Shown: one piece after another, positions 22,223-60,100 of the stretch | How the letters are laid out: the number at the start of each line of letters is the position of its first letter | How positions within the stretch are numbered: position 1 is the stretch's first letter | NCBI GenBank assembly: GCA_026545225.1 | Contig: CM048853.1 | Span: 49,091,755-49,155,754, forward strand | Origin: Cornus controversa | Taxonomy: Eukaryota > Streptophyta > Magnoliopsida > Cornales > Cornaceae | Length of the DNA stretch: 64,000 nt | Direction of reading: 5' to 3' | Program-made: the position numbers and the translations under genes | Notes under the pieces: generated by a model | Database searches by the model: none | What the model saw: only the letters and a program-made list of their open reading frames with translations | What the model was told of the DNA's origin: nothing

Positions 22223-23292
22223 GTGTAAATTACACTGGCCTCCCTTGAAATTTTGTCTAATTATACATAATATTAAATTAATAGATTTTATTACAATGAC
22301 CTCCTTTGAGGTTTGCTCCATTACGATAAAGACTCTCTCTGTCCAAAATTTCGTTAGTTTTGTCAAAAAAATTAGGATAAATTACACTGACCTCTCCTAA
22401 GGTTTGACCTAATTACAACCGGTGTCAAACTAATTGATTTTGTTACAATGACCTCTCTTGTAACAGAAATGGACTAACCGACGTTAACTTTTGGGTGAAA
22501 TGTCTATTATACCCTTAATATTATATTGATATAAAAATTAAAATATTTATATATATAAAATGATACTTTTGCCCATCTAATATAATAATATTTACTATAG
22601 TAAATATTATTATTATTATTACTATATATATATATGTAGGTATACATATACATATTCCCGCCTTCGGCTCAATCAACCTCACCATGGTAGTGGTCATGGC
22701 AACTAGGGTTTGCACGATGGTTGTGGTGGCTTATGGTGGCTCGGCTAATGGTGGTTCACGGCATGGCAGTTGTGAGTGGTGGGTCTGGTCTGTGGCATGG
22801 CGGTGGTCTTGGTGTGGTGTCAATGAGGGTGATGATGGTAGCTGGAGTTGTGCACGCACACACACACACATATATGTATATCTACATATATATAATAATA
22901 TTTACTATAGTAAATATTATTATATTAGATGGGAAAAATGTCATTATATATATATATATTTATATATATATATATTAATTTTTTATCAATATAATATTAA
23001 GGGTATAATAGACATTTCACCCAAAAGTTAACGTCAGTTAGTTCATTTCTATTACAGGGGAGATCATTGTAACAAAATCAATTAGTTTGATGCCAGGTGT
23101 AATTAAGTCAAACCTCAGGGAAGGTCAGTGTAATTTATCCTAATTTTTTTGACAAAACTAACGAAATTTTGGACGGATGGGGTCTTTGTCGTAACAGAGC
23201 AAACCTCAAGGAAGGTTATTGTAACAAAATCCATTAGTTTGATACTGGGTGTAACTTGGCCAAATCTCAGGGGAGGTCATTGTAATTTACCC
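22223..23292. mobile_element. Foldback / Mutator-like element with arms of about 430 bp
   Basis: The outer 433 bp (22223-22655) and the last 424 bp (22869-23292) are inverted copies of one another. They share AAATTACAMTGACCTCCC-type termini, TTCGTTAGTTTTGTC, GTTAACTTTTGGGTGAAA, and a small inner palindrome, ATATTTACTATAGTAAATAT. Each arm holds two internal sub-repeats of the terminal motif. The 213-bp core is rich in GGT on the plus strand and has no credible ORF. The flanks AATAGTACA and AACAATATA match at 6 of 9 bases, compatible with a decayed 9-bp Mutator duplication. Confidence 0.75.
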
Positions 23293-26126: not shown

Positions 26127-28771
26127 TGTAGAGACCGTGACCAATTTTGGTCGATTTTGCATTTTTCGCATCATAATTGCCATAGATGTGTTTTGAGTAG
26201 TGTTTAGCATGTTTTGAGTGTGGGGAACATGTTTGGAAAGTATTTTAAGGATTTTGGTAAGTTTTTGAAAGATTTGAAGAAATTTGACTTTTTAGTCAAA
26301 CTAGGGCCCGGGATGCGGTTTAAATGGGTCTGAGAATCCGGAAAGTTTTTGAAAAGATTTATTTTTGGAAATGACTTCCTTTAGAGAGTAAAGGAAGTGA
26401 TTCCGAGGTCGTAGGCATTTTTGAAATCGAAAACGGAGTCCGGGAAGATACATCAAGTGGCCCGGGGCGAAATAGTCATTTCACGCCCTAATACACTTTT
26501 AAAACATGTGGTTGAGAGAGATTCTAACATTCTCATGGTTCTATCTCTCTCTCTTCTTTTTCCCTCTTCTCTTCTCTTCCTTCTCTCTAGATTTCGGAAG
26601 CCTTCGGTTGTGATTCGTGTTTCACCAAAGAAGAGAGATACGTACGGGACGACTAGGGCTTCCATTTGAACCAAACATCTTCGCGGTTCGGCAAGGTAGA
26701 CGTCGCTGAAAATTTGTTTAAGTGCTTGGAAGGCCTTCAATTTTGAGGTAGGGGTTTCTTTTCTCATTTAATTGTCGATTATAGGGTTTCGGGAGAAACG
26801 GTGAGAGCTAGGGTTGTGTATTGCATGCTTTATAATGGTAAGAGGGGTGAGATGTGGTGAGTTTCTATCTCTCTTTAGTTTCTTAAATATAATTAGTATG
26901 TATATGTTATATACATGATATGAGGAGTGAATGAGTGAGAGAAAATGAGCATGTACACTTATATGCTAGGGTTTGGTACACTTTTGCGAAAATGTGTTAA
27001 ATGAGCATATTTGTGTTATGTGATTTTGTATGAGTTAGAATCCATGCCTTCTTTGTATAAAAAATGTATGCATTGGTGAAGAATAACAAAAATGTGCTTA
27101 AGTGAATTTTGTGAGCATATGCGATTTATGCTAGGGTTTACATGTATAGGAAATTGTATGTGTGGGTTAGTGGAGATGAAATGCATGCTAGGATTTTTTA
27201 TAACTAGCTCATGTATTGTAATGCATGAATTTTAAATGCTTGGACCATATACATTCGAAATACATGTATAGGGCCGTTGTGAGGAGAACGGGGGAAAATG
27301 AGAGAGTAATCTAATCACCTTGGAATATATGATGACTCGGTGATAAACCCATCTAATCACCTCGAAGTATGTGATGACTTGGTGATAAACCCATCTAATA
27401 ACCTCGGAGTATGTGATGACTTGGTGATAAACCATCTAATCACCTCGGAGTATCTGATGACTCGGTGATAAACTATCTAATCACCTCGGAGTATGTGATA
27501 ACTCGATGATAAACCATCTAATAACCTCAGAGTATGTGATGACTCAGTGATGAATTCGAAAACCACCCAACCACCTTGGAATATGTGATGACTCGGTGGC
27601 GGTGTTAAAACTGTGGTAAGTGTCTCGGTCGCATAGTTGGTCAAGAATCATGTTAGGGTATCGGGTTGAGTCTGAGAGAGAGAGACAAGTGAATGATGTT
27701 GCTTCCATTTTAGATTATCAAGCATGATATGTGTTTAAGGCATTCTTATATGTATATGTGTTACTTGTGAACGAACATGATACATATTGGATGATACGTG
27801 TAATGTAGTGATATGCATTCATATAGGTTGGTGTTGATTCGGCACTTCGGTGGGTTGGGGTATCTCTACTAAGCCGCCGTGGTGCTCACCTCTTTTTTCT
27901 AAACTCTTTTTACAAATAATGCGTCAATGACGGATGAGACTTGAGTGTCCAAGTGGGATTTTAATTACTTCTTGTTCTATTTTTGGACATTGTATATATT
28001 ATGGTTATCCATGTCAGCTTGTGACATGAGACTTCATTTCAAGTTGTAGTAATATTTTGGACAAATGTAACTTGATGCATGCTTGGATTATAAGCTTCTT
28101 GTATATGAAAAGACTTTGGATTTGGTCATGAGACACATGTTGTAGTATTTAGCTTATTTGATGAATGTCTCCAACATGAATGGATTATGGTTGTGAAGGG
28201 GAATGATTCATTTTGATGTATGAGTTAATCATGAGTATGATTGATGTCAGTACCTTTCATGTATGATTTCAAGGTTGTAAGATGGATTATGAGGGTAGAA
28301 ATGACTTAGAATGTCAAAAATGACCATTTGCATAGTTGTAGAATTTGGACACTTTGATGCATTAAAATGCCCATTTCGATCCATTGAAGCTTCGATGCAT
28401 CGAAATGCCCTTTTCGATTCATCGAAAAACCTGCAGGATTTTAGAATGTCAAAGTACCGAGAGTGAATTTTGGTTGATACATGTTCAATGCATCGAAACT
28501 TCGATGCATCGAAATCACTATTCACAACATGATCCAAAATTTGCCCAGACTTCAATCGGGCATAACTTCTTCATTTTGAATCAGAATTGAGTGTGGTTTT
28601 TTTTTAAATTGAGTATTTTTGGATCCTTTTTCTAATGGACTAAGTGTCACGCTCAAATTCTAAATTTACAGGAAGTTAGGTTCTGGATACTTAGCGGTTT
28701 ATGAACGTGAATCGGGTGGAACCTTTACTGTTCGCCCTCGGTTCCCGAGAGTAAAAAATTGGGGCATGACG
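26127..28771. mobile_element. 2.6-kb LTR-like insertion (candidate solo LTR)
   Basis: It begins TGTAGAGACCGTGACC and ends GGGGCATGACG. It is flanked by TAGAT (26122-26126) and GAGAT (28772-28776). Copy 2 of the surrounding repeat has an empty site (AAGAT at about 31668) at exactly this point, so the boundaries are well fixed. No gag-pol reading frame was seen. It contains a CT-rich leader-like region (26530-26590), a 42-bp minisatellite and TTCGATGCATCGAA palindromes. The 3' CA expected of an LTR is CG here. Calling it a solo LTR is inference; a non-coding large retrotransposon derivative is possible. Confidence 0.6.
27311..27600 (+). repeat. Minisatellite, seven units of about 41-42 bp
   Basis: Unit starts are at 27311, 27353, 27395, 27436, 27477, 27518 and 27567. 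The core is CTAATCACCTCGGAGTATGT followed by GATGACTCGGTGATAAACC. Periods are 42, 42, 41, 41, 41 and 49. It lies inside the 2.6-kb LTR-like insertion. Confidence 0.9.
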
Positions 28772-42822: not shown

Positions 42823-43220
42823 ATTATAGCAATTCAATGACATCATTAGATTAGATAGGTAGGTATAAAAGCTATATATATATATATATATATTAGGTGT
42901 CCGAAAAAAGGTCAGTCTTACCTCGCACCAGCTGTTTACCGTTTCGAACTCGTAATGCTCAAGTGACCCATAACCAACACTACAAATTCATTGATAAGTT
43001 CCCTTCTTTAACCTTATCTGATAAATTGACTAATTAACTTGCAACCCTTTAATAGCCATATGCATATCTTGAGTGCCTTTTCCCCCCCTAAAATAGCTTC
43101 TAATATTTTAGGTTGCAATCTTTTTTGACAGATATGCAACCCCAAAATATGCATACCATGCTTATATACTTGTGTTGCATTCAGGTTTCTCTAACATCAC
43201 ACAAATTACAACATCAAATC

Positions 43221-43430
43221 ATGTATCCAACAAGCTTACTTTCCCGGTTTGTGCAAAGTCAGAACCGAATCCACTATGGTGCATCCAAGAGATTATTCCG
43301 ACATATGCAAGGAACGAGCTCAGGCTCGAGGAATGGTATGAAGAGCACATCAGGATACACATCCACCCTCGGTTCTCCAAACTTGTCAGAGGCATCAATG
43401 AAGCAAGATACAGTCGCACAATCAACCCAA
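43221..43430 (+). pseudogene. Ty1/copia polyprotein remnant fused in frame to the ADH ORF
   Basis: The frame upstream of ADH reads [20 protein letters not shown], then [12 protein letters not shown], later [14 protein letters not shown] and QDTVAQSTQ. These follow the reverse transcriptase / RNase H junction of copia elements (M..SLLSRF...P...H..AAKR.LRY..GT, then KSTSGY.F.LGS and QETVAQS). About 25 residues expected between the two blocks are missing. The segment is a dead fragment that happens to stay in frame with the ADH. Confidence 0.75.
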
Positions 43431-43478
43431 AAGTACTCCATTTACAAGTTCTTGAACAGGAATTGCCATTCGAGAACA

Positions 43479-44609
43479 ATGTCAACGAGCAGCTCACAAG
43501 TCATAAAATGTAAAGCCGCGGTGTGCAGGGCAAAAGGGGAGCCAGTAAGGTTGGAAGAGGTGGAAATACAACCACCAAAAGCATCAGAAGTCCGGATAAA
43601 GATGCTATACGCCAGTCTGTGTCACACCGACATCCTATGCTCCAATGGGCTCCCATTTCCGGTGTTCCCACGAGCTCTAGGACACGAAGGTGTTGGCGTG
43701 GTAGAGAGCGTGGGCGAAGGAGTTACAGAGTTTGAAGAAGGAGACCTTGTCATTCCCACATTTCTTGGAGAGTGCAAGGAATGTGAGAATTGCAAGTCAG
43801 GAGTGACCAATGTGTGCACAACATATCCTATGCATATGCATGGTCTAATGCCCGATAACACTACAAGAATGTCTATTGGAGGGCAAAAGCTGTACCACCT
43901 ATTTAGCTGCTCCACATGGTCAGAGTACACAGTTGCTAATGTTAACTATGTTGTGAAGATTGATCATCCAAGTATGCCATTGGCACATGCTAGCTTCATT
44001 TCATGTGGCTTCACAACTGGATTAGGGGCACCGTGGAAGGAATGCAATGCCGGAGAAGGCTCATCTGTTGCAGTGTTTGGTCTTGGCGCGGTTGGGTTAG
44101 GGGCGATACAAGGGGCTAGAATGCAAGGAGCATCCAGAATTATTGGAATTGATAAAAATGAAATGAAAGGTGTGAAAGGACAGGTTTTTGGGATGACTGA
44201 TTTTATCAATCCTGATAAATATGATATATCTGTCTCGGAATTGATTAGAGAGGTAACCGGAGGAAGTGGTGCAGATTACTGCATTGAGTGCACTGGAGCC
44301 GGACCACTGGTGTCCGAGGCCCTAGAAGCCATTAAACCAGGAAGAGGAACTTTGGTGCAAATCGGTGCAGGGGCTAAGCCGACTATGGAGGTCAATTTTT
44401 CAACCCTCTTGCTGGGTAGAACCTTGAAGGGTTCTGTTTTTGGAGGGATAAAAACCAAGTCTGAATTACCCATTGTGGTAGACAAATGTGCAAATAAGGA
44501 GATCCAGCTGGATGAGCTTTTGACTCATGAAATTTCCTTTGACGAAATAGACCAAGCATTTGACCTGCTCAAGAAACCGGATTGTGTCAAAGTACTTATC
44601 AAGATCTAA
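43479..44609 (+). CDS. Intronless zinc-dependent alcohol dehydrogenase
   Basis: Medium-chain NAD-dependent alcohol dehydrogenase of the plant ADH-like group, predicted cytosolic. The 376-aa body has the usual family length of about 380. Numbering from the ATG at 43479, catalytic zinc ligands are C48 (LCHTD), H69 (GHEGVGVV) and C176 ([12 protein letters not shown]). The structural zinc cysteines are C99, C102, C105 and C113 ([15 protein letters not shown]). The NAD-binding GLGAVG is at 201-206, with acidic D225. All key residues are intact. The frame stays open upstream to an ATG at 43113, but that extension is a copia remnant, so the start [15 protein letters not shown] is preferred. Plant ADH genes normally have many introns and this has none, which points to a retrocopy. 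Substrate and expression cannot be told from sequence. Confidence 0.88.
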
Positions 44610-51116: not shown

Positions 51117-54100
51117 TTTTTTTTTTAAATACTAGTTTTGACCAAAAAATGGTTGGATAACATAAACAAACATTTTGTACAGTACCATGTATGAGAAAAT
51201 CTGGGTAGAAGGCATACTTTGTTTAAATTAGTTAACTGAAAGAAAAAATGTCTTCAAAAGTCTGAGGATGTTGTTACATAGGTTAAATTACTAGTTTTGA
51301 TCAAAGAGGAAATAGAAGAATTATTAAAGAGATTCATGAAATAGAGTATATTTCCAACAAAATGTAGCATAATCTCAAGTAAGAATGATGAAAAAAGATT
51401 TTCTCCTTTCAGATTAGTGGTTTAGTGTTGAAAATTATGTATTGTAATCCTTCTATTTTAGAGTTATGTTTGTTTAGGTAACAAGGAATTTATGATTAGG
51501 GCTTTCAGGATAGAATAGATACGTAGTCTGGGTTGAGACAAATGAGAATAGAAGAGATTTAGTTTTATGATAGAGTTGGGTCTGTAAGGATATTATTGAC
51601 TCTAGCTCACAAAACAAATAGAGATGGTTGGTAGAGTGTGCACACTGATGGCCAACACGGAAGCATGATGCTTGAATGGCTGTGGACCCATCGCAAATGC
51701 TCGTAGACACCTGTCACTAATAGAAGTTCCCATAATTTAAAAATAAATTTCATTATTTCAGACGTTCCCTAACACAAACCTTATATAGCATAAACACATC
51801 TTAAAAGGAGTCATCTCCAACAATCTTAGAAACAAGATTAACAAATTAAAGAGCAAAACCTTTTCTTTAAGAAAATTTGAAATTATAAGCACAATCACTA
51901 CAAGTCAAGCATGTAAGCACACTTTTTTATATAGGATAAGAACATAATTAGAATGAAAAAGAAAATATAATAAGGACTACTATAGTAAATAAGGAAGCGT
52001 GATGCTCAAGTGTCTTGTGGACATGTATGAGAAGGGCTCAGATATTGACTACAAGGCATACAGAGCAGGAGTTTTAGTACTATGATAGTGGGTTCGGGGT
52101 ATCTTGTAGGTGTGGGAGGGAAGTGATTCGTTGTAATATAATGATGAGTGCCTTTTGGCGAGAGTGAGACTGGAAGAAGATTAGGACAGAATAAAGGACA
52201 GAACACAGGTAGTATCTCTGGGGGAGCTATACCTCTCTGATATTTCACTAATGCACTTGTAACAACCTCGGCATATGCCAATAGTTGAGGTACCCGATGG
52301 ACGCACTTGGGGCACCACATGTCTTGTCCTTTCATCTGGCCGAGGTGCGAATGAAGTATCCTCAGAGACAATATGAAAGTCATACCTCCTCAACTGCCTA
52401 ACCCCAACTAGCCCCTGATGAAATCCACCAAGCCACTGTTGTCCCATTAAGATTATGGTGCAATATCAATAATCCACTCATGCTATAACCATTGTGGTCA
52501 TGACGTTGTATGCGTAACATCATGACGCCCTGACATGGTTCCACAACAATCAGATCACCTTGTGGTAGCCAAGCTTTGGCCACGTTGCACCAAGATATGC
52601 AACTTCAAAGTGATACTAGAGAGTGATTCGGTTACTATTTTGACCGGTGTCATCACAATATGCTGCTTATGGACTGTGGGTCAAGACAAGTTACTGTGTT
52701 GACCATTCCTCTTATCTCCCCTCATCTTTTTTTTTTTTTTAGTTGAAGGAAAAGAGACTTGAGAAGGCAGAGGGACCCAGCGTCTGAGATGCTCTAGTCA
52801 TGTCCCCACATGGCTATAAGGGGTCAAACAGTGACCTACCTCAGTCACAAGGGGCTTGAGAGTCGTCCTTCCTCATTGTGATGAAACTGCATGCTCCCCT
52901 TTTTGTTAGTTCTGTCTTTTATACTGCTTCACACATTAAAGAGATGATCACTATAACCCAAATTCCACGTCCTCTTCTTTTAACAACCATGTAACAACTT
53001 TTGTATGATTGATATCTATACTCCATCTTGAGATGGAGTGATGATCAATAGAAGAAGTAGAGGAATAACCTTATATAAGTACTAATAAGAAGAAGGGAGG
53101 AGCAATTCTAGCCAAGCTCTCTCCCATATGCTTCATTCTCAATCTTGTTTTTAGTTAACCGAACAACAATCACAACTTAAATGGTGCTTTTATTTTCCAA
53201 CTTGGACTTTTCTCCATAAAATGATAAAAATTTGTGAGCAAGTAAAAATTAAAAACTCAATTCTTTGTAGTACTAAGTTTTTCTAATACAAAGTTTATTC
53301 TTGTTTGATTGACACTAAAATGTTTCCAACAGTCAAATCTTCTCTTAAAACCAATACAAAATTTTCTTAACTCAGTATATTTGACTCTCTATAAGTAAAT
53401 TTCTAATTGTCTAACTCGAAAACAACTTTCAAACAATAGAAACTCATAACAGATTATAATAACCTTTTTGGATTAAGTTTTAGATATAAATAATGATAAC
53501 ATCATTTAGTTTTACATACCTGCTATGACTAGTTATTTCTTCTTTTGTGAGAGCTTCATCTCTGCTACTTTTGTTGATGCTGCCTGTATCATTAGCATAA
53601 TGCCTTTGCATTGCACTTTGAGCCAATCTAAACAAGCTATCCCGTATGCAAAGTCTTATTCTTATGTCCAACTGCAAGAGAACATCGATTGGCATTGTGA
53701 TTTTAACCAATTTAATAATTCCACTGGGAAAAAAAACAACCTGGAAGTATGACAAACCTTTGCAATGACATCCTGCAGTTGATAAAGTATTGTGTCCTCC
53801 ACTGAACAGTCATCAATTGCCACAGAGTTTGTATTGGAATCATCCTGTTCTACAAGTGAGTTCTGGTCAAGAGGAGGAAGAGTGGTTAGATTTTCTTCTA
53901 CTTCAATGTTTCCTCCTTCAATAAGCTGCATTTGGCTTTCGATTGAACATTTTTGAGCGACAAAATTATTAGCACAAGAAACTTGATGAGTTAATTGTTG
54001 CTGTTGTTTCTGAATTGCAAGCATTGCTCGCATTTGCTGTCGCCGCCGTAATTTTTCAATTTTTTCCTGAGGTGTCATCATCAGAGGCTTCACCGGAGCG

Positions 54101-57100
54101 TCTGGTGATTTCTTTAAAATATTTTCTTTACCAGGTGAAACTTTACATCCTGAAAGCACAACTTGATGATCATCTTCCCCAGAATGAATCTTTGTTAGTA
54201 CTGGCATGGCAGGATACTGATTTGTCATATTCCTGTACATAGAAGGGGCTAAAAGTGTGTTGGAGAAATGATGGCACTGCAGAGACTCAGGTCCTTGAAG
54301 CTGCCTTTGCTGATGGAGCACTGGAGATGGACAAATTTGGCCCATTGGCGACTGAAATTGTCCATCAAATTGGTGGAATTGGTTTCCAGATGGAGACCAG
54401 GTAGTACACAAATCCTCTAATTGTCTCCTTCCACTTTTTTCATCTGATTTTTTGCGGCCTTTCAGCAATTTCTTTTGTCTATTCACCTGCACATATGAAA
54501 ACAACTAGAGCAACACTTTGACTTTTACATATACAAAAAAGAAGGGCTCTGAAAAGGACTGCTAAATTCTTTTCAAACTTCTAGTAACAGAAAAGTTCAA
54601 TGTGTTAATTTACCAACAAATTGATGTCCAGTTGTTGATAGCTAATGACTAACTGTTTGATAGGCAGTTAAAAAATCCCCAGTTTTCCTGAATTATTATT
54701 CATGAGATGTGTACAGGCATATAAAGGAAAAGAGGGTAGGGTTTCGTAAAAGATGCACACAGGTTCATACACTATTCTAAATTAGGAGTAGGTATTTGGT
54801 AAGCCGGGCATACCACGTCATTGGCATGCCCGGCCAATGAAGGTGCATCATTTAGTGAAAATGGTCCCACTTACATATGAAAATTGCTCTCAATAAATTG
54901 AAATAGTATATTTCATAGGTTGTGGCATACTAATGACATGGTATGCCCGCCTCACCAAATATCTACTCCTGAACTAGGGATGTCCATTTGATAACAACGG
55001 AGTAATCTACGCCAATTGTATTGGAGACTCTACATCATGGTAGGGGCAGGTTTGAGGAAAAGAACATAGAAAATATGAGGTTCTTACTCCCTTAAATTGA
55101 ATGATCTTTACTCGTAAATGTAATTGTTAAACACCATCTACTCCAAAAGTTTAAGCTATTAGAGGAGGTGCAATTTAAATATTTAAGTCCTCAACACGTC
55201 CCCTCATGTGTGACCTTTTTTTGGTCCAACACGTGCTTCAATTTTTAATTAGGGTGACGGTGAGGTTTGAACTCAGGTCCTTGCCTGCGGCAGAAACCTG
55301 CTCTGATACCATGTTAAACACCATCTACTCCAAAAGCTTAAGCTATTAGAGGAGGTGCAATTTAAATATTTAAATCATCAACAATAACATTCCACGTCAA
55401 CAAAGCCTTTTGGTATTAAATGCCATTGACTACAATTAATATTAAAAATATTATTGTTGTGGGTACATTTCGATGTTCGGAATGATAACAATATGCATAT
55501 TGCTTTTGAATGCCACATTGTATACCAAAATTTTTAAAAGATTTGCAACCTGATGGTATTACCAACTGTCCCAAAAAAAAAACAAAAGTTTTATTGTACG
55601 TTGCCCCACCCTTGAGTTTGGAATGAGTTTGAAAACAGTTTTCCTTTTCCGGGGTGTACATGGGAAGAGGATTCCCCATCCCAAATCTGTTCTACTGATA
55701 TCCCTATTCTGGATTAAACTAGTTTAATATAATAGACTTAAACAATAGATTCAGAATATAGGGATAATGACAAGTAAAAGGATGGAGTACATATACACGA
55801 GTGGAAGAAGGATGGTTAATATGACATGGCTCAACAAACTAATCTGGTAGGAAAGGAAAAGAAATTGAAAATATTGAATATAAACTTTTACAAAAATAGA
55901 AACAGAAAAAGTGGGGATAAAAATGGATAAAATTTAGAAGGATGGAGAAGCTGTAATTGCTTATAGAAAATGTGATAGGAATATTAATTGAACTCATACA
56001 GGGAGAAAATAATAGTTAATATAAGTAGCGGTAAATGTTTAAATACTCCAAGTAGGATTAGACAAGTGCATTAAGACAAAAAACTTGGAAACATATAGAT
56101 GAATTAATTCAAGGTACACGATGAAGAAAAGAAAATATTTCCAAAATATTTCCAGGTGGAGATTTTAATGGTAATGTAGAAAATGGAAACATGAAGCATA
56201 TGAGGAAATGAATAGTAGATATGGATTTCGAGATGAAAGGATATTATTTGTAAGAAAAAAAATTAAAGAATAACATCTAATAACCTTAAAAGAGCGAATC
56301 AAACAGAAGTCAGATATTCTTTCTTTATTAGATGAGTAGAATGAATGAAGTGTAAAGACTGTAAGGTCATCCTACAAGAGAGCTTGACCCTGCAACAGAT
56401 GTTTTAGATATGTAAGAGAGATAGAGAGAGAGGATTTTAAAAAGAGGAGACAATAAATTAGTTAAAAGAAAATACTAAAAGAATCAGCATGGGATTTAGA
56501 GGGCAAAACTACTATAATGTTAAATGCTATGATCTATTGTATTAAAAGAATGTCATAAATGATTATTGATAAATCAAAAGGAAAATTATTAAATGCTATG
56601 ATCTATTGTATTAAAAGAATATCATAAGAGATTCTTGATGAATCAAAAGGAAAATTATCATAAGTAGAGAAAACTTAGTGCTGCGTTGGGGAAGTCCAAA
56701 CTATATTAAAAATAGAGTGTTAGAAATTTTGATTAAAGAATGCTGAGAAAAACACTCACGAACCAAGCACAATCACGAAACATGACACAAAACAAAACAA
56801 GCACAACACACAAAATTACAAAAATTTACGTGGTTTGGCGATATACCTACGTCCACGGCGAAGATCCGGTGAAAGATTTCAGTATGCGAAAATCAGGAGA
56901 TCACAAGTTTCAACCCCAAACCCTAGCTCTCTCTCTCTCTCTCTCTTTCCGAGTTTTCAATGTTTTTTCTCTCGTTTTACACTCCAAACCCTTAGATGCC
57001 CTTATATATCGGGCTACAAGAGAATCTTAATTCGGGTCCAAAACCCGAAAGCAAAAACGGGTCATAAAAATTTTCAAAACCAGGTCGCAACATGACCCGG

Positions 57101-60100
57101 GACAAGAGAAAACTCGGGCCACAACATAACAAAGAAGAAACTAAAAAAAAAAGAAAATCTTCAATGATAAAAATATCCAAAGAAGGAAGTTCAGAAATTA
57201 GTATGAGACACTAAATAAACCATACAACAATTGCTAATCCAAGGAAAAATAAAACTAGAGATTTCAATGATGCTAATTGTACAAGGAATGAGGATCTAAA
57301 TGTTTTGGTAAAAAATGATGAAACTAAAGAAAGATGAAAATACTTTAGGATAATGTTGAATAAAAGCCATATAAGAAACAAACGTAGCCTTAGGGAGACT
57401 AGAAAAAATAATTTCTTTCTTTGTTTCTTTCTTTTTTAAATTTAAAATCAAGGTGTTGAGGTAAACAAAAATGCATTGGAGAAGACGAAACAAATAAGGG
57501 GTTATGTCTAGTATTCCTTTAATGTTTGGGTGAGTTTAGGGATCATGGCATATCTTGACTAACAAAATTGTTGAATAATATCATAATAAAGAAAATGTTT
57601 GCTGAGTGGTGAAGAAGAATTTTAGAACCTATATATAAAAAGAAAGAAATATTCAAAGTTGCACAGATTAAAAGTGGTACTAAATTAAGAGTCATAATAT
57701 CAAATTATGCTGGAGACTTGCCAAGTAAATTAAGACTGCACAACAATATATAAAAATCAATCTGAGTTTCTGTCAGGAGATCAATGCTGAAAACTATCTA
57801 CTTAGTTGAGACTGATAAAAGGGCATAAAGAGAAGAAGAAAGATCTTCTTATGATTCTTAGGCCCTGTTTGGATTAACTTTTGAAAAGTGGCTTTCGGCT
57901 TTTCAAGCTCAAAAGCCGTTTTGGAGAGTGTTTGGATTGGTAAGGCTGAAGAGAGCTTCAAAGTTCAAAAAGAGCGTTCAAAGGAAGCCGGTGGGTACCA
58001 ACTTCTTCATTTAGCTTTTGCTTCTCTTTTTTTTCTGCATAAAAGCCGAAGCAAAAGCTCTACCAAACAGGGCCTTATAGATTTATCTAAAAGGCTAAAA
58101 CATAACAAGATAGATTTAAAAAAGAAATGTGTCATGAACAGATATATTGATATGATATGTGGCATACTTGATAGAGCTTGGACCATAATAAGAATAACTA
58201 TAAGAGACACAAGTAGAGTTTCTATTGTTGTTCATCCATGTTAGGGATCAACGTTGAGTCTATAACTTTTTGCATTAAACATTCAAGACAAGATTCCACA
58301 TCGGGATATAGACTAAATTAGATGTTTTAGAGAGGCTCTAGCGTCGTGAGGGTTTAGCAAAACTAGGAACAAGAATAATAAAGAACTAGGAATATGAATA
58401 GGGATATATTGAAGATTGAGGGTTAAGAAATACCGAAAAGTGAAAATTTTCATTAGACAAGCTCAACAACTCACGAAGAAGAAATTTGAGATGATGTAAT
58501 AAAACAACACAAGATGACTTAAGTGGAGTGCTTCTAGCATATTGTGTAATCGACATATACCTCCAAAACAAAAAAAGTAAAATCAATAAAACAACCTTTA
58601 GACCAACCATGATTTATTGGTGGTGTGGCGACAGGCCTTTGGCTCAACTTTTTCCCAGTTTCTATCGGATCTCGCGTAATCGCCATACCTTTGTCTCTTT
58701 CTGCTACCACCTTGATAGTGGAAGAACAATATGGGATGTCGGGTTCACGAGAAATCTTCAGGACTGGGAGATTGAGGATGCCATTCGTTTTCTGGAGTCG
58801 CTCTATCTCCAAGTTGTGAATGTTGGGAGGGAAGACTCAATGACATGGACTCCTTCTCCGAAGGGCTTCGAGGTGAACTCCTTCTATAGGAGTATTTCTG
58901 GGTTTGAAGGGACGACTTTCCCTTGGAAGTCTGTGTGGCGCTCTAAAGCCCCCCCCAGGGTGGCCTTCTTCTGTTGGACCTCCGTTCATGGAAGAATTTT
59001 AACACTTGACAACTTGAGGATAAGACAACAGATCATCGTGAACTGGTGTTGTATGTGCAAGCAAAATGAGGAGACAGTTGACCATCTGTTACTCCACTGT
59101 TCAGTGGCCCGTGACTGTTGGAGCTTACTTTTGGGATTGTTCAGAGTTCAGTGGGTCATGCCCAGCTCCACCAGAGGTCTGATGGAAGCCTGGAGCGGTG
59201 GCCTTGTGGACACTCATGTCCGTAATTATTGGAAGGCAACTCCCCTTTGCGTGTGGTGGTGCTTGTGGAGAGAACGAAACTGAAGAACGTTTGATGACGA
59301 GGAGTCTTCTAATGGGACGCTTAAATTCTCAATTCTTTGTACCCTCTCTTACTGGGTTCAAGGTAGAGCTTGTAACTCCGTAGAAGCAATGGTTGACTTT
59401 TTAAGTTCCTTTGCTTTGTAATAGGTTCTTGTTCAAGGGTTGCCCCTCCCTTTTTCTGGGTGCTTTCTAATAAATCTTTACTTATCAAAAAAAAAAAGAA
59501 TTACAAAACAACATGTTTATAAATGAGTATGATTGAAATGTGGATGTTGATATGGATATGGTGATAAGAAAAGAAAAGATGAGATTAGGAATGATTACGA
59601 GACAATGAAAGTGGAGTCATCTGATAAGTCTGATATACATGAGAGAATGCCAATGAAGATGTTTAGCAATGAGCAACAAAGACCAGTAACTTTACTTGTG
59701 AGAAGAAGTGTGTGATGTCCCACAACGCCGGGGGGGGGGGGGGGGGAGATTGTTGAGACTTATATGTGTGGACACCTCCTAAGTATGTAAACGCGTTTTG
59801 AAAACTGTGAGCACCAAGTGTGCAGATCGGACAGTATCTACACAGTGCGGGTCGGGTTATGCAAAGTCAATCCTCAGCTGAAAATGGGGTGAGCATACAC
59901 AAGCCCATGAGGGTTTGGCTAGTGAGGATGCTTGGTCCCAAGAGGGGGTGATTGTGACGTCCCACATCGCCTGGAGGGATAGGTTGTTGAGACTTATAAG
60001 TATAGACACCTCCTAATTGTGTAGACGCGATTTGAAAACCATGAGTACCGAGAGGAGAGAGTGCAAAGCAAACAATATCTACACGGTGTAGTGCCGGTCG

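Follow-up and report, generated by a model that had tools for sequence, protein, structure and literature searches.

TRIMs, the class of LTR retrotransposons closest to the element described here, range from about 250 to 1500 bp according to a 2023 guide (PMC10741241). SMART (FRetro129) is described as 292 bp long, with 85-bp LTRs and a 122-bp internal region (PMC3281118), and the smallest TRIM given by Gao et al. 2016, CcaRetroS9 of pigeon pea, measures 233 bp, with 52-bp LTRs and 10 complete copies (PMC4717578). Which element acts as the helper is an open question for most TRIMs: Gao et al. 2016 report that a protein-coding relative was not found for 278 of 289 TRIM subfamilies, with four putative autonomous elements proposed for other TRIMs (PMC4717578), and the Copia element FRetro64 was proposed as the helper for SMART of Oryza brachyantha (PMC3281118).

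The window, by which we mean the whole 64,000-nucleotide stretch of Cornus controversa DNA that was analysed, carries a 259-bp element at 55125..55383 on the minus strand, delimited by repeat comparison and by its copies elsewhere in the genome. It is almost certainly a non-autonomous LTR retrotransposon of the TRIM class and of SMART size. A sequence-only reading of the window had presented it as smaller than the smallest class known, naming SMART as slightly larger; SMART is indeed larger in both total and LTR length (292 and 85 bp; PMC3281118), and the claim to be the smallest known fails because CcaRetroS9, at 233 bp with 52-bp LTRs, already lies below it (PMC4717578). The size of the element is therefore no record among LTR elements, and the family is a TRIM, a new member of a kind already described, near the lower size limit and not at it. 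It shares with SMART the size class, TGT...ACA ends, 5-bp duplications, solo LTRs, a lack of coding capacity and a Copia candidate helper (FRetro64 in the case of SMART), and differs from it, in a comparison by description only, in having lengths of 259 and ~248 bp with 72–73-bp LTRs (PMC3281118).

Direct-repeat comparison placed the 5′ LTR (in the sense orientation) at 55312..55383 and the 3′ LTR at 55125..55196, both on the minus strand and 72 bp long, with the ends TGTTG...TTAACA and thus the TG...CA termini of short terminal direct repeats. The two are identical at 69 of 72 nt (3 differences), and their starts lie 187 nt apart. The repeat spacing leaves an internal region of 115 bp at 55197..55311 (minus strand), which is non-coding. 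This comparison returned the same coordinates as the sequence-only reading, which had described a 259-bp element with two 72-bp LTRs, 3 differences and 115 bp between them. The 5′ LTR contains a TATA-like sequence, TTTAAATATTTAA, at 55362..55374 (minus strand, by eye), a candidate Pol II promoter element, and an imperfect palindrome at 55328..55351 (minus strand); many of the other copies have it too, as 24 nt at 92%.

The primer binding site (PBS), TGGTATCAGAGC, occupies 55300..55311 and directly adjoins the 5′ LTR. In agreement with the reported match to initiator Met-tRNA, it pairs in the window copy with the 3′ end of initiator tRNA-Met, without interruption over 12 nt, and it is the sole match in the window at ≤1 mismatch, against a chance expectation of 0.18. 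Since the PBS lies on the minus strand, the element reads in that direction, from 55383 down to 55125. The contiguous PBS–tRNA match is also 12 nt long in the copies L014 and L012, and 11 nt in L009. The gene for initiator tRNA-Met is present in the same genome, with 15 exact copies among 29 matches, and ARAGORN called tRNA-Met(CAT) at all three loci scanned. At the other end of the internal region, a polypurine tract, GAGGGGACG, abuts the 3′ LTR at 55197..55205 (minus strand). The tract, already noted in the earlier reading, was identified by eye; it is short, and the two bases adjoining the LTR are CG.

The flanks of the window copy, GTAAT at 55120..55124 on the left and ATAAC at 55384..55388 on the right, agree at 3 of 5 positions and do not form an intact 5-bp target duplication. 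The description of the element as complete is therefore slightly too strong for this copy. The left 150 bp of flanking DNA is single-copy in the genome. A 280-aa ORF lies at 53662-54504 on the minus strand, ~620 bp from the TRIM; we take it to resemble a plant clock-output LNK protein, and it had no Pfam or NCBIfam match. With this LNK-like ORF so close, the TRIM could be inside a gene or close to one.

We searched the 771.7-Mb assembly (61 contigs) with the 259-bp unit. The search returned 1,736 first-look candidates, of which 40 were scored, giving 48 matches; 42 of these 48 listed matches span at least 243 of the 259 positions at 79–100% identity, and the other six are shorter pieces. A strict 22-mer from the LTR start occurs 116 times in the genome (reversed control, 0), and a 31-nt LTR core at ≤3 mismatches has 2,227 matches (reversed control, 0), a number that counts LTR cores and not complete elements. 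Recurrence of the unit throughout the genome with unchanged ends puts its arrangement far beyond chance. CcaRetroS9, compared here by description only, is likewise a TRIM and even smaller (233 bp, 52-bp LTRs), and its 10 complete copies stand against the 2,227 matches found here, which are cores rather than complete elements (PMC4717578). Sequence words of the family had no match in the full-text literature, a weak result, since few papers print sequences.

Target duplications were scored in 39 copies besides that of the window, fetched with their flanks; these are the best-scoring copies and so are biased towards intact ones and towards those closest to the window copy. A perfect 5-bp duplication flanks 29 of the 39, four more agree at 4 of 5 positions, and six agree at 0–3 of 5, two of these six being units inside arrays (L044 and L045). 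The 5-bp duplication is thus a property of the family, as seen in these 39 other copies. The search therefore yielded what the sequence-only reading had expected of a genuine retrotransposon: a dispersed family with common LTR ends, 5-bp duplications and a conserved internal segment.

Mobility is seen at L028, where the insertion sits in a dispersed repeat. Eight paralogues of this repeat were fetched from 42 matches to a query that held two insert sites joined; the insertion is absent from all eight, and the sequence runs through the junction with a single copy of the target, exactly CTATG in four and a variant of it in the other four. Together with the family count, these empty sites show dispersal by transposition. 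The LTR-retrotransposon reading has thus stood up within one genome to the tests proposed for it, including the empty sites at paralogues of the L028 locus. If the two repeats were a tandem duplication that arose by chance around a 115-bp spacer, the lack of a clean target duplication at the window copy would be in keeping with this; the dispersed family, its fixed ends, the duplications and the empty sites refute such an origin, and we give it practically no credence. This is a genuine family, and one that has been mobile.

The LTR pairs are consistent with the same history of the retrotransposon. The mean difference between LTRs is 0.045 within an element and 0.074 between elements, none of 10,000 random pairings in a permutation test was as low as the within-element mean, and 11 of the 39 copies have identical pairs. 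Three loci were checked as solo LTRs, two with perfect duplications (CACCG and CTATG) and one with 3 of 5 positions equal. Arrays behave as single insertions: the whole of L044 is flanked by AACTC/AACTC, the whole of L045 by sequences equal at 4 of 5 positions, and the four-LTR array L105 by AATGT/AATGT. In this respect L044 and L105 are like the tandemly arrayed TRIMs, L3I2 and longer, that lie within one duplication pair, and no essential difference from those described is seen (PMC4717578).

A SINE or MITE that happened to carry terminal direct repeats could share the small size, the high copy number and a box-B-like motif (discussed below). Such an origin is refuted by the 5-bp duplications, the TG...CA ends, the PBS, the solo LTRs and the LTR-sharing arrays, and by eye there is no A-tail, and inverted terminal repetition is confined to the 5-bp LTR ends, so that it is as good as excluded. 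The target duplications, the empty L028 sites, the coherence of the LTR pairs, the solo LTRs and the arrays are all what insertion of an LTR retrotransposon leaves behind. An LTR element of ~250 bp, with 72–73-bp LTRs and ~102–115 bp inside, can therefore spread widely in a genome, which implies that the sequence requirement in cis is very small.

The family is not uniform. We read the first 20 of 442 sites at which TTAACA is followed by the PBS and sorted them by eye. Eight were TRIM-like (L088, L089, L090, L095, L096, L102, L105 and L107), one was a chimera (L103), and 11 had other sequence ahead of the PBS; in six of these 11, the LTR end repeats 2.8–6.1 kb downstream, which is the pattern of an ordinary LTR element. 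The TRIM-like loci include a subfamily of ~248 bp with a 73-bp LTR (by eye). Also by eye, CTCGT flanks L090 and CTCTC flanks L107 on both sides, and a second LTR was not seen at L096. At L048 and L049, the same LTR is associated with other or longer internal regions. No autonomous element with the family LTR at both ends was present among the first 20 of the 442 sites.

A TRIM of this type would pass through the usual LTR-retrotransposon cycle. Transcription would start in the LTR, probably with RNA polymerase II acting at the TATA-like box, and the RNA would be packaged in particles of a Copia-type helper, a lineage suggested by three PBS-fused loci. The 12-nt match points to priming by initiator tRNA-Met at the PBS; reverse transcription with strand transfers would then give two LTRs that are alike, and insertion by the integrase of the helper would produce the 5-bp duplication.

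The three PBS-fused loci are L103, L116 and L117, where the family LTR is joined at the PBS to one common Copia internal region. The PBS is altered at one position each in L116 and L117, and the family LTR of L117 is shortened. With ≤3 mismatches allowed, a search for this junction recovered L103 and L117 alone, L116 differing more. Among 60 listed matches, 10 leave out the LTR and align from its end on (query 73-82 to 389-391), and the two of these 10 that were read, L118 and L119, have the same Copia internal region behind a different LTR of ~290 bp. Pfam identified Pol_BBD and gag_pre-integrs after the junction in one of four scanned pieces of L103 and gave no match in two later pieces. On its 3′ side, L103 carries the other (Copia) LTR as pieces of 26–178 nt at 80–96%; on reading this end, no target duplication was visible. 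L103 was considered as an autonomous partner with the same LTR and rejected, its 3′ LTR being that of Copia itself. Its 5′ flank is Copia gag-like (Pfam E 0.00065, below the cut-off), and a Copia piece lies ~2 kb from L116 in inverted orientation.

Judged by spacing and by eye, the interval from the PBS to protease is too short for gag in L103, and likewise in the relative with a different LTR represented by L118 and L120, the protease of L120 also being identified by eye. Since the space for gag is absent, the joined Copia region cannot supply particles alone, and Gag would need another source. An intermolecular transfer of plus-strand strong-stop DNA would be expected to give this arrangement, with the TRIM LTR 5′, the Copia LTR 3′ and the junction exactly at the PBS. 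The chimeras at the primer site thus suggest co-packaging and a Copia helper lineage. We tentatively propose, as a possible and somewhat speculative account, that plus-strand strong-stop DNA of the TRIM jumped at the PBS onto a gag-less Copia minus strand in a shared particle, giving insertions of the L103 type with the TRIM LTR 5′ and the Copia LTR 3′; in that case each of the two RNAs would rely on Gag from a third element, making the parasitism two-layered, and PBS junctions could serve as a general way to name TRIM helpers. The LTR ends of the TRIM and of Copia, together with the PBS, have ~18 nt in common, so recombination at the DNA level is also a possible origin of the junctions. The chimeras offer a sequence-based lead to the Copia lineage that may move this TRIM; the lead here is an LTR fused at the PBS, unlike that for SMART, which is shared internal sequence (PMC3281118).

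Past the PBS, the internal region holds GTTCAAACC at 55264..55272 (minus strand), recognised from the sequence and from genome-wide counts of the PBS/GTTCRAA pattern. By motif only, we take it to be a candidate resembling a Pol III box B or tRNA T-loop. GTTCRAA occurs 5–35 nt past an exact 12-nt PBS at 570 sites in the genome, compared with 46 for a permuted 7-mer. The motif or a one-change form of it follows the PBS in all eight TRIM-like copies among the 20 loci read (by eye), with a spacer shorter than in the window subfamily. Several different spacers between PBS and motif occur among 100 places listed, which suggests that more than one family carries the PBS with GTTCRAA.

These counts, the variety of spacers and the presence of the motif in every TRIM-like copy read are what would be seen if Pol III transcription were driven by a box-A/box-B-like pair that overlaps the PBS and continues past it, making the element a TRIMp3 variant with an internal promoter instead of one in the LTR. 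We consider this unlikely. Much or most of the GTTCRAA excess may reflect shared descent inside one large family, and transcription starting near the PBS would give an RNA without the terminal repeat R, from which LTRs could not form by the usual route. In four loci of other copies scanned with Rfam, there was no tRNA or 5S match at E≤10, and none of eight sub-threshold matches was to a tRNA; ARAGORN found no tRNA in the window. These scans accordingly revealed none of the tRNA- or 5S-derived LTR sequence that defines TRIMp3, and homology of the internal region to tRNA or another Rfam family was rejected on the absence of a tRNA match in the four loci. Helenus and Cassandra (TRIMp3) are similar as small LTR elements with a tRNA-like box-B motif, and as described they hold the small-RNA sequence inside the LTR, whereas the motif here is internal, past the PBS, with no tRNA model match at the four loci (PMC10886601).

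The T-loop-like motif might instead extend the contact with the primer tRNA and have no promoter function. A T-loop sequence is quasi-palindromic, which makes an antisense contact conceivable. For the 43 nt following the PBS, however, the pairing predicted with the remainder of the tRNA did not exceed that of shuffled sequences in the two copies tested, 13% of 300 shuffles being equally strong for the window copy and 71% for L014, and we regard such a contact as very improbable. The TRIM reading with transcription from the LTR is preferred over both.

Other features were recorded elsewhere in the window. An inverted repeat at 22225-23290, with 312-nt arms that are 87% complementary and 442 nt apart, is possibly a foldback element, and a tandem repeat with a 41-bp unit occupies 27388-27592. 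A zinc-type alcohol dehydrogenase ORF with Pfam ADH domains lies at 43113-44609, and an ORF with a zf-RVT domain at 58528-59283 is probably a LINE remnant.
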